Shown here: positions 13,470 through 25,085 of the stretch, in pieces | Layout: each line of letters starts with the position of its first letter | Numbering within the stretch: position 1 is the stretch's first letter | NCBI GenBank assembly: GCA_016235605.1 | Contig: JACRJW010000034.1 | Span: forward strand, 1 to 38,334 | Direction: 5' to 3' | Length of the DNA: 38,334 bases | From: Candidatus Uhrbacteria bacterium | GTDB lineage: Bacteria; Patescibacteriota; Patescibacteriia; UBA9934; GWF2-40-263 | Position numbers and translations under genes: made by a program | The notes under the pieces: generated by a model | The model's database searches: none | What the model was told of the DNA's origin: nothing | Seen by the model: the letters and a program-made list of their open reading frames with translations, nothing else

Positions 13470-13559
13470 TGGTTCGTTCCAATCTAAGCATCCGGCTTGG
13501 AATTTGGGGCAAGACGTGCCTCTGCGCTCCGGCGCGACATAGGCACAACAGGAGAAGTC

Positions 13560-14297
13560 ATGGAAGCCATGATCGAGTTGGCGCTCCGGCGCCAGGCTGA
13601 AGAAGCACTGGCCCACGCTCTCGCGAACCCGGCGAAGTCCGAGATCGCGCGCGTCGCGTACCAGATGGTGATCAACGGCCAGACCGAGGCCGAGGTGCGC
13701 GCGTCGAAGGTGCACACGCCCAAGGTCGACCTCGCCGAGGAACGCCGCGTCGCTCTGGAGGCGAATTTCCGCAAGCGCGGGTTTGAGATCTCGGTTCCCA
13801 AGCCGAGCGTCTCCAACACCACGCTCAAGCGGTGGCGTCGCGAGGGACGAGAGTTGTTCTACCGTCCTGCGACCGCCCTCATGAGCTACGCCGCGTGGAT
13901 GTCCGCCCACGGCCAGGCCAAGCACTGGACTGTGGTCAACGAGAGCGACCGCGCGAAGGTCGGTTGGGAAGACGGAAAGGCGGGCTACTGGTTCACGACG
14001 CAGATCGTCCCTGCCTGCCCCCAGCTCAACACGAGCTGGAACGACCTCACCGCCTCGACGAAGCTCCTCTGCCTCGAGGAGTATGTGATCGTCTACTGGA
14101 CACACCACGACCTCACGGGTATCTGCATCGACGTCAGTACCTGGTGCTGGCTCCGTACGCGCTTCGGTCGGTGCGCCCTCAATGCCATCGTCACTGACGG
14201 TGAGGTGGGGGTCTCTAGGGACGATCCCGACAGCCTCTCGGTCCCGTATGCTTACGAAGGTGGCCGCGCCGTGGAAGTGGTCAAGAATGCTGCTTGA
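13560..14297 (+). CDS. DGR target (variable) protein; C-terminal variable-repeat region
   Basis: SD aggag then ATG at 13560. The last ~40 codons (RFGRCALNAIVTDGEVGVSRDDPDSLSVPYAYEGGRAVE) are a mutated copy of the TR at 14625-14746. Confidence 0.88.
   Translation: MEAMIELALRRQAEEALAHALANPAKSEIARVAYQMVINGQTEAEVRASKVHTPKVDLAEERRVALEANFRKRGFEISVPKPSVSNTTLKRWRREGRELFYRPATALMSYAAWMSAHGQAKHWTVVNESDRAKVGWEDGKAGYWFTTQIVPACPQLNTSWNDLTASTKLLCLEEYVIVYWTHHDLTGICIDVSTWCWLRTRFGRCALNAIVTDGEVGVSRDDPDSLSVPYAYEGGRAVEVVKNAA
14156..14277 (+). repeat. DGR variable repeat (VR), 122 bp
   Basis: Aligns without gaps to 14625-14746 (offset 469); 16 mismatches, 13 at TR adenines. 3' end is an identical GC-rich tract (ggtggccgcgccgtggaag). 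Confidence 0.93.
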
Positions 14298-14624: not shown

Positions 14625-14746
14625 AACGCGCTTCGGTCAGAGCGCCCTCAATGCCAACGACAACGACGGTGAGGTGAGGGTCAACAGGAACGATCCCGAC
14701 AACCTCTCGGTCCCGTATGACAACGAAGGTGGCCGCGCCGTGGAAG
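14625..14746 (+). repeat. DGR template repeat (TR), 122 bp
   Basis: Adenine-containing (AAC/GAC-rich) copy of VR: aacgcgcttcggtcagagcgccctcaatgccaacgacaacgacgg...gacaacgaaggtggccgcgccgtggaag. Confidence 0.93.
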
Positions 14747-14756
14747 CCGTCAACTG

Positions 14757-15131
14757 TTAAGACACGAGACCCAACCGGCCTCGTGTCTTCTTTCGCCAGC
14801 CTCCAAGCATACGTCCAATTTCCATGAGCTGGTTTTCCCGGTAGATGTAACCCTCACGTTTATAAATTCCTAGGTCATACGTGAGACGTACGAGGATTTT
14901 CACAAGGTCGAGTGTTCGTTGCAGTCGGTCGAGTAGGACGAGACGTTCAGGGATCGGTAGAGAATTTGCTTCCCAGATTCCTTCGATGAGTTGAAGTGTA
15001 CGCATTTTTAATGTTTCACCAACGGCGTGCCGTTCTGTTTTTGGAAACCTGATGACGTCAGTGTGCAGAAGCTTGTACCATTCATACAATTTATGAACCA
15101 ATCCGAATTCTTCACCGGGAAACCCAGTCAA
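14757..15131 (-). CDS. avd: Avd-like DGR accessory protein (four-helix bundle family)
   Basis: GLVHKLYEWYKLLHTDVIRFPKTERHAVGETLKMRTLQLIEGIWEA...LDRLQRTLDLVKILVRLTYDLGIYKREGYIYRENQLMEIGRMLGGWRKK, typical of the Avd/23S-IVP four-helix-bundle family; adjacent to TR and RT. Only a TTG start in the present frame. Confidence 0.82.
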   Translation of the reverse strand: MTGFPGEEFGLVHKLYEWYKLLHTDVIRFPKTERHAVGETLKMRTLQLIEGIWEANSLPIPERLVLLDRLQRTLDLVKILVRLTYDLGIYKREGYIYRENQLMEIGRMLGGWRKKTRGRLGLVS

Positions 15132-15150
15132 CCATCGATCGAATTCGGTC

Positions 15151-15161
15151 GGGGGGGGGGG
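15151..15161 (+). repeat. Homopolymeric G tract (11 G) at the Avd/RT head-to-head junction
   Basis: ggtc-GGGGGGGGGGG-tacttc. Confidence 0.95.
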
Positions 15162-15208
15162 TACTTCAAAGGCATACCTTATTTAAGGATGTCATTGCGC
15201 TAGAAAAT

Positions 15209-16210
15209 TTGTTTGAAGCTTGGGAGGTATTCCATCGTGGGAAAATGGCCAAACAAGATGTCCTGGATTTCTCCATGAGGCTTGAGGACGAATTATTTGA
15301 CCTAGCGCACGACCTTGGAAACGGATCGTACCATCATGGCTGGTATGAGCGATTTTACATTCACGACCCCAAGCGCAGGTATATAAGCAAAGCAAGTGTG
15401 CGGGATCGAGTCTTACACCAAGCGCTTGTTGGCGTGGTGGAACCGATGTTTGATCCAACCTTCATTTTCGATTCGTTTTCTTCTCGTAAAGGGAAGGGGA
15501 CACATGCGGCGATTGACCGTCTTGAAGATTTTTTAAGACGCGGATCTCGCAATGGCTCGAACACGATTTATGCGCTCAAATGCGATGTATCGAAATTTTT
15601 CGATTCGATACAGCATGATGTGCTTATGGGGATGCTCAGACGGCGTATCATCGACGAACCGTTGCTAGGACTTGTAGGGCAGGTCGTTACAAGTCACACG
15701 TCTCATCAAGGAACGTCGTGCGGGCTTCCACTTGGGAATGTCACAAGCCAACTTTTTGCGAACATCTATCTCAATGGATTCGACCATTGGGTGAAGGAGC
15801 ACCTGAGGGTACGATGGTACATTCGGTTTTGTGATGATTTCATTTTGCTTCACGAGAGTCGTCAGTTCTTGGAATCAGCCATTGTGCAAATTGACTCGTA
15901 TCTATCGCAACATCTCCATCTACAGCTTCATCCGTATAAAGTTTCTCTTCGGACATATCAGCAAGGCATCGATTTTCTTGGTTGGGTGTTGAGGCCAAGT
16001 GTACGTACGATGCGAACGAAAACGTGCAGGCGCCTATCTCACCGTGTGGATGGTCTGGTGTCACAGTATAGAGAAACAGGAACCCTACAAGAGCGTTTCA
16101 GTGAGACCGTCCAGTCTTGTTTAGCGGCCTTTGATCACGGTCAGGGATTTAGGAATCAGGAGCGACTCATTCATTCAGTAAGACAGATGAAGTTTAAGAA
16201 TCTTCAATAG
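15209..16210 (+). CDS. DGR-type reverse transcriptase
   Basis: RDRVLHQALVGVVEPMFDPTFIFDSFSSRKGKGTHAAIDRLEDF; YALKCDVSKFFDSI; GLPLGNVTSQLFANIYLNGFDHWVKEHL; RFCDDFILL; GIDFLGWVL. The frame is open upstream to 15056; TTG 15209 is the first standard start codon in frame, but homology-like sequence (HTLFKDVIALENL) precedes it. Confidence 0.93.
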   Translation: MFEAWEVFHRGKMAKQDVLDFSMRLEDELFDLAHDLGNGSYHHGWYERFYIHDPKRRYISKASVRDRVLHQALVGVVEPMFDPTFIFDSFSSRKGKGTHAAIDRLEDFLRRGSRNGSNTIYALKCDVSKFFDSIQHDVLMGMLRRRIIDEPLLGLVGQVVTSHTSHQGTSCGLPLGNVTSQLFANIYLNGFDHWVKEHLRVRWYIRFCDDFILLHESRQFLESAIVQIDSYLSQHLHLQLHPYKVSLRTYQQGIDFLGWVLRPSVRTMRTKTCRRLSHRVDGLVSQYRETGTLQERFSETVQSCLAAFDHGQGFRNQERLIHSVRQMKFKNLQ

Positions 16211-23912: not shown

Positions 23913-24683
23913 ATGCCTGTGGATTTCGTAAAGCTCCTCACAGACCTTGGTCTCACGCCAACGGAGACGCGTGTGTATCTGGCCTCGCTCAAACTTGGTC
24001 CCACGTCGGTCCAAGAGATTGCCAAAGTGGCGAGACTTTCTCGTACCGCAACCTACGACGTGATCGCGGCCTTGCAAGAGCGCGGCCTCATGTCGACGTT
24101 TGAACGCGGGAAGAAAAAATATTTTTCTGCCGAGGAACCTGAGCGAGCCGCCGCGTATTTTAAGAGTCGTACTCTGGAGCTGAGGGAGAAAGTTGAGATG
24201 TTTACCCGCTCACTTTCGGAAATGAAAATGCTCTCAGGTGGAGAGCGACCGACCGTACGGTTTTTTGATGGAAGGGAGGCTCTCCATGCACTATTTGCCG
24301 ACCTTGTTTCTGTGCATCCAAAAGAGCTTCTTGAGCTTTCGAATGTTGATTCCGTATATGAGCATCTTGATCCAAAAGTATTTCTGGAGGCACGCAAGGC
24401 ATTAGACGAATCGAAGGTGAAGATTCGCATGTTGTTCAAGGGAGTGCAGAGGAATCCTCGTCCTGGCGCCGAGTATTGTCGTTTGCTTCCAGAGTTTGGG
24501 GATTTTAGTGGAGAGATCTGGATCTATGAGAATCGTGTGGCGTTTGTTGAATTCGTAGGAAAGATGATAACGGTTATCATCGAGAGTAAAGGGTTTGCCG
24601 ATATGGCGCGGACGCTGTTTCGAGCCGCGTGGTCGATTTGTTCTGCACAGCCATTTCACCAACAGGATAGATCATCAATTTGA
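23913..24683 (+). CDS. TrmB-family transcriptional regulator
   Basis: LLTDLGLTPTETRVYLASLKLGPTSVQEIAKVARLSRTATYDVIAALQERGLM winged HTH. Confidence 0.85.
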   Translation: MPVDFVKLLTDLGLTPTETRVYLASLKLGPTSVQEIAKVARLSRTATYDVIAALQERGLMSTFERGKKKYFSAEEPERAAAYFKSRTLELREKVEMFTRSLSEMKMLSGGERPTVRFFDGREALHALFADLVSVHPKELLELSNVDSVYEHLDPKVFLEARKALDESKVKIRMLFKGVQRNPRPGAEYCRLLPEFGDFSGEIWIYENRVAFVEFVGKMITVIIESKGFADMARTLFRAAWSICSAQPFHQQDRSSI

Positions 24684-25085
24684 AAATCCACCGTTGCTCT
24701 ACGAGCAACGGTGGGCAGGTCGACCCTGCATGAGTCGGCTTGCGTTGAAGCCTCTCAGGGGGGGGACGATTTGCGTTTGGGCGAGCTGAGCCAGCTCAGC
24801 TGGGCGTTGCGCTCCCCCGGATCCGGCTCTGCCGTGCTGGCCAGAGCCGGACACAGGGATCATCACGTTCGTTCATCCGCCCATGGGTGCCTCCAAGCTA
24901 GATCTAGACGATCCTCACCGCGCCATCGGCAACGGGAGCGTCGTCGAGGGGAAAAAGGTCGGTGTCCGTCTGGAGAGCCGTCTTCTTGTTGATGCCGGCT
25001 CGCTCGGTGACGTTTTTCAAGATCTACCCCATCGGGTTTGGCTCATGTTCGAGCCAGGTAGTTCTCTGACTGCGGACATTGTCCA

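Follow-up and report, generated by a model that had tools for sequence, protein, structure and literature searches.

A G tract between divergent avd and RT genes as a likely phase-variation switch of DGRs in Patescibacteria

Introduction

Diversity-generating retroelements (DGRs), which mutate a protein of the cell that carries them, and phase variation are each well known. Roux et al. 2021 described a DGR clade 2 that is restricted to Patescibacteria and has lower-than-average activity, without reporting a switch (PMC8144416); phase variation, homopolymers, frameshifts and slippage are not mentioned in the main text of that study. Contingency loci of Neisseria, Haemophilus and Campylobacter use poly-G and dinucleotide switches. 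No report joining DGRs with phase variation was found in the open-licence PMC literature searched (preprints not included).

Here we describe a DGR locus of Ca. Uhrbacteria and its relatives. The window, i.e. the whole stretch of 38,334 nucleotides that was analysed, is contig G000:C8 of a fragmented 1.2-Mb MAG with 8% contamination. The locus shares reverse transcriptase (RT), bAvd, a template repeat (TR), an A-biased variable repeat (VR) and its presence in Patescibacteria with described DGRs, including those of clade 2 (PMC8144416). RT homology and the fold of Avd are shared with the BPP-1 type of DGR, but in the locus of a BPP1-species phage (L336) there is no repeat close to RT, and the neighbouring genes are on the RT strand. 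The annotation of two further phage records puts avd on the same strand as RT, whereas the two genes are divergent in 159 of the 160 class loci whose 5′ sequence was long enough. The split RT of Quimbyvirus (PMC8008677) is similar in that a DGR RT is distributed among several frames and VR continues to change; it differs in belonging to a Bacteroidetes phage, in that programmed frameshifts were invoked, and in that no repeat is mentioned in the relevant sections. Features in common with contingency loci are a repeat in the 5′ coding part, a random register and a gene that is intact on either side. Those loci switch a surface structure or a methylase, whereas the genes concerned here make a targeted mutator and, in the subclass of the window, one tract would serve two genes on opposite strands.

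Loci and samples

RT homologues were present in 43 of 72 genomes of the order and 166 of 380 genomes of the class. Once duplicates had been taken out (L163 in favour of L164), the class set comprised 177 distinct RT loci; it left out L018 and L019, which are outside the phylum, as well as loci found via G patterns. It consisted of the best-scoring listed matches only and thus not of every match in the 166 matching genomes. Eleven loci were set aside, either without the RT N-terminus or with less than 110 nt of 5′ sequence, leaving 166 evaluable. Sixty-four phylum loci were kept apart from the class statistics; many of these had been picked for a match split near residue 175 and are enriched for broken frames. 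An avd anchor was obtained in 105 of the 106 class loci with a 5′ repeat, and 103 of the 105 were used in the start-codon count. Each genome provided one consensus tract length, without read data.

The DGR of the window

A locus was regarded as a DGR on the basis of an RT match, a match of the accessory protein Avd and TR/VR differences at adenines. All three criteria were met and the window carries a complete DGR, with a VR-containing target, TR, avd on the minus and RT on the plus strand (Table 1); its activity in mutagenic retrohoming is inferred. Of the 128 positions compared between TR and VR, 17 differ; in TR, 12 of these are adenines and 5 are C. The RT exceeded the cut-off of its Pfam family and was matched by phage DGR RTs. 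No DGR RT family of NCBIfam matched the RT of the window, the best match being a group II RT under its cut-off. Avd was recognized by PF22296 (bAvd, 42.5 bits, cut-off 40) and remained under the cut-off of NCBIfam DivGenRetAVD (58 bits, cut-off 80). A structural model of Avd, built from two sequences, had a pLDDT of 85.6 and four long helices forming a helical bundle, and its matches included PDB 4dwl and 8ub7 (E 0.05–0.3, TM 0.64–0.69). The prolines encoded by the tract fall in the low-confidence N-terminal tail of this model, so extra residues would be tolerated there. A Pfam search with the target gene yielded no match. Its start is more likely ATG 13560, preceded by AGGAG, than the listed TTG codon, as judged by eye.

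Table 1. Positions of the DGR features in the window (n, number of G in the tract)
Feature	Position	Strand	Remarks
DGR target gene	13497..14297	+	listed start TTG 13497
VR	14157..14284	+	at 3′ end of target gene
TR	14626..14753	+	87% identity to VR
avd	14757..15149	-	divergent from RT; frame open across tract; alternative start TTG 15131
Predicted RT N-terminal extension from ATG 15093	15093..15150	+	in RT frame only if n is a multiple of 3; within avd, opposite strand
11-G tract	15151..15161		C tract on avd strand, codes for prolines; proposed phase-variation repeat
Predicted Avd start, ATG 15175 to tract	15162..15175	-	in avd frame only if n is a multiple of 3
DGR RT, conserved part	15182..16210	+	no start codon between tract and TTG 15209; PF00078 84.2 bits, above cut-off

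The tract separates the 5′ ends of the divergent genes avd and RT. The original prediction, made from the sequence alone, had claimed an 11-G tract at this junction, an RT frame that is open back to 15056 and has no ATG, GTG or TTG ahead of TTG 15209, and RT-like residues upstream of that codon. All of this held: the tract has exactly 11 G, and the upstream residues LFKDVIALENLFEAW align with the N-termini of homologues. The claims that one additional G joins plus-strand ATG 15093 to RT and minus-strand ATG 15175 to Avd were likewise confirmed, with MNQSEFFTGKPSQPSIEFGRGGGVLQRHTLF... and MPLKYPPPPTEFDRW... as the respective products; the RT peptide quoted at the time was only partly correct, having one G (glycine) too many. 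The caveat that neither ATG has a clear Shine-Dalgarno sequence agrees, for the avd ATG, with the absence of such a motif in all loci inspected (0 of 84).

The hexamer TACAAT at 15085–15090, 2 nt ahead of ATG 15093 and also present in the related MAG L017, is a possible −10 box for RT within avd. The window contains a second G run (8 G, 24758–24765), located 3′ of a gene (23913–24683) with weak TrmB-like matches.

Tracts in the own genome and its relatives

The same locus was recovered from the MAG Ca. Uhrbacteria nzgw366 (L017) with about 81% identity and 10 G at the tract position. Tract length was the sole gap in the 1,199 aligned columns. Runs of at least 8 G occur at about ten sites of the 1.2-Mb genome to which the window belongs. 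This genome has three DGR RT loci, all with 9–11 G just 5′ of RT, and three of its five tracts of at least 9 G are those at the DGR RT genes, which is above chance. The 15 family genomes for which tracts were listed have 57 tracts of at least 9 G, 20 of which were at an RT, and 20 of 24 RT loci had one.

The remaining two tracts of at least 9 G in the own genome are 9 G at C105 (6468–6476), adjoining a gene that we take to be pyrophosphatase-like, and 13 C at the end of contig C38 (1–13), where the assembly may have broken. The RT copy on contig C30 (L012/L108) has a 9-G tract 5′ of RT and, in addition, a frameshift at about codon 195 without a repeat, possibly reflecting a pseudogene or an assembly error. 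Five order-level genomes (G002, G014, G017, G019, and G020) contain many more tracts of at least 9 G away from DGRs; further phase-variable genes are a possible explanation.

Repeats across the class and phylum

Between avd and RT, in the 110 nt preceding RT residue 1, a repeat was present in 106 of the 166 evaluable class loci, as G8–15 in 99 and as GA of 8–20 units in seven. Ten loci had a repeat within RT and 50 had none; ten of the latter have 6–7 G at the usual tract spot. The 106 repeats lie in 18,260 bases 5′ of RT, compared to three repeats in 424,090 flanking bases, i.e. about 820-fold fewer per base. On the RT tree (166 rows) the label for a 5′ repeat changes at least 25 times, and repeats are clustered, yet frequently lost or gained. 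The phylum-level loci agree; CT and GT repeats also occur 5′ of RT, and GA repeats in the middle of it. Some repeat was found in 46 of the 64 (counted by hand), two of which have just 5 units. One of the genomes with a repeat at the homologous place is a single contig (G439). The position is kept and the repeat unit (G, GA, CT, GT) is not, as expected if selection favours a mutable reading frame. No repeat was found in 12 phage DGR loci or in L019 (Bacteroidota), used as outside controls, and the outside control L018 has 8 G at 556 nt 5′ of the RT match. Relatives of the RT were not found in viral contigs.

Dinucleotide repeats, mostly GA, occur in place of the G tract 5′ of RT in L045, L118, L197, L202, L216, L221, and L237, and within RT in L211 and in phylum loci including L279, L282, L286, and L303. 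Two loci that lack a repeat of any kind at the usual places have a G tract in another position near the element (L166, 11 G at −378 from RT; L227, 9 G at +1032), possibly as another switch position.

Register of avd

Reading avd upstream in three registers, exactly one register reached an ATG in 84 of 105 loci, two in 19 and none in two. By a simpler count, 105 of 105 loci have at least one register with an avd ATG, compared to 48% in shuffled sequence. In 49 of the 84 loci, this ATG precedes RT residue 1 by 1–10 nt. The avd ATG at a conserved position is thus real, and its actual use as a start codon is inferred.

A gene that is always read should be in frame, a programmed frameshift should show a single offset, and a freely slipping tract should distribute the register in thirds. 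At the assembled tract lengths, avd was in frame in 26 of the 84 loci, one unit short in 28 and two units short in 30; a stricter set was likewise near-uniform (27/25/33 of 85, p = 0.54). The control loci differed: every one of the 35 repeat-free loci had an in-frame ATG for avd (30 determined by script, five by eye), and avd was in frame in all eight loci with a repeat within RT. Mid-RT repeats themselves had offsets of 0, 1 and 2 in 8, 13 and 5 of 26 cases, respectively, in a sample biased to split matches. At the assembled length, 41 of 103 repeat loci offer no in-frame ATG, GTG or TTG whatsoever for avd.

Two genes at one tract

RT lacks an ATG, GTG or TTG 3′ of the tract in 27 of 105 loci, including the window, and its ATG is located 5′ of the tract within avd on the other strand. 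Twenty-six of these loci have an avd ATG, and in all of them a register that opens RT also opens avd (hand count); where both registers are unique, agreement was 13 of 13. The registers also agreed in 13 of 20 loci in which a separate RT start exists 3′ of the tract (26 of 33 overall), and antisense geometry therefore accounts for part of the 13 of 13. Whether a single tract controls both avd and RT in the subclass of the window is, on these numbers, a question on which we are evenly divided. We hold the general repeat switch to be much more likely than this double switch; for either, slippage, expression and the effect on mutagenesis are inferred.

A dual-coding constraint on the RT/avd overlap was considered and not supported, as no third-position signal was detected between the window and L017 (14 of 19 in the overlap vs 60 of 93 elsewhere), in a comparison that was underpowered.

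Signs of reversibility

The frames on both sides of the repeat remain intact in out-of-frame loci. Of the 28 loci in which avd is out of frame, 26 have kept a TR/VR pair whose differences are mostly at adenines, as have seven of eight with avd in frame. Phase variation calls for a hypermutable repeat where length alters the frame and for length variation between close relatives, and both criteria were met: the repeat is so placed, and tract length differs in eight of 12 pairs of close relatives and is equal in four. One of these pairs has 15 vs 7 G with 93% identical flanks, and also has a local deletion. MutS_V was undetected in 40 of 41 family genomes, including the own genome, and was detected in 11 of 14 control genomes; slippage should thus be frequent in these organisms.

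Discussion

The comparison of loci establishes the repeat and the conservation of its position, along with the registers, the repeat-free controls, the intact flanking frames and the TR/VR pairs. The reading that best unites them, and which we consider likely, is that the tract is a contingency repeat setting the reading frames of the DGR by phase variation; slippage within a population, start-codon use and loss of mutagenesis are inferred. Slipped-strand mispairing would add or drop G in the tract. Whenever n in the window is a multiple of 3, ATG 15175 would be joined to avd and ATG 15093 to RT, and the two divergent genes would be ON at the same time; with n = 11, as assembled, neither would be in frame. 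Targeted mutagenesis of the VR gene would consequently be mostly OFF in the consensus population. This inference is firmer for RT than for Avd, because a start at TTG 15131 is possible for Avd and would leave its helical core intact. For most relatives carrying a 5′ repeat, the switched gene would be avd, with RT having its own start 3′ of the repeat, and in others RT would be switched by a G or GA repeat within it. Avd is required for DGR activity in Bordetella phage BPP-1. The phase-variable control of the retroelement that had been proposed in the original prediction is thus supported and much strengthened, and is unproven in the absence of reads and expression data.

The main rival is recoding, by which slippage of RNA polymerase or the ribosome yields some in-frame RT or Avd at every tract length and a dangerous enzyme is held low and constant. 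It is favoured by the retention of TR/VR pairs in OFF loci and by the DGR RT of Quimbyvirus, which is encoded in three overlapping frames that were read as programmed frameshifts and is accompanied by A-specific VR changes (PMC8008677). However, a programmed frameshift requires one fixed offset, and this criterion failed since all three offsets were seen at both 5′ (26/28/30) and mid-RT (8/13/5) repeats. Transcription is not known to slip on GA repeats, which here reach 20 units, and this also speaks against recoding. We therefore regard recoding as unlikely, while transcript slippage on G runs is possible and not excluded. Alternatively, the tract could be part of an untranslated leader, with Avd starting at TTG 15131 and RT at TTG 15209 and tract length being irrelevant in the window. 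Both TTG codons are in frame and the helical core of Avd starts after TTG 15131, but an RT starting at TTG 15209 would lose the conserved residues FKDVIALEN, 41 of 103 repeat loci have no in-frame avd start at all at the assembled length, and it would remain unexplained why a repeat is maintained there or within RT. This explanation appears very unlikely.

The G run could also act as a DNA or RNA structure, such as a G-quadruplex, for the DGR RNA or for promoters. The stretch between TR and RT is on the RNA that a DGR requires, which is a point in favour of such a role. A G-quadruplex or other sequence-specific element is nevertheless ruled out by the GA, CT and GT repeats that substitute for the G tract and by the mid-RT repeats that occur instead, and we consider a structural role all but excluded. 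The same grade applies to assembly error or decaying pseudogenes. The fragmented and contaminated MAG, the 13 C at the end of contig C38 and the RT frameshift without a repeat on contig C30 would be compatible with it. A sequencing or assembly artefact, including the two-colour artefact feared in the original prediction, is ruled out by repeats at the homologous place in many independent genomes, including one assembled as a single contig, and decay is ruled out by the open frames on either side of the repeat and the persisting TR/VR pairs.

Phase variation by the repeat, the preferred reading, has consequences for annotation and for the interpretation of DGRs. An RT or avd gene of these genomes that is split or has no start is not necessarily a pseudogene or an assembly error. 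A mostly-OFF switch would directly explain the lower-than-average activity of clade 2 (PMC8144416); membership of the window in this clade is untested. The reading is testable in existing metagenomes by relating repeat length to VR diversity. A bolder version could as easily prove wrong as right, namely that targeted hypermutation is a phase-variable, bet-hedged trait across Patescibacteria, with mutating and non-mutating cells existing together by means of a repeat in avd or RT, plus a double switch by a single slip in the subclass of the window.

If the contingency reading is true, a bacterium without detectable MutS would time an error-prone enzyme by an error-prone repeat and thereby place the evolution of one protein under stochastic control. 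In this uncultured, ultra-small bacterium and many of its relatives, cells with hypermutation switched on would then occur beside cells with hypermutation switched off.
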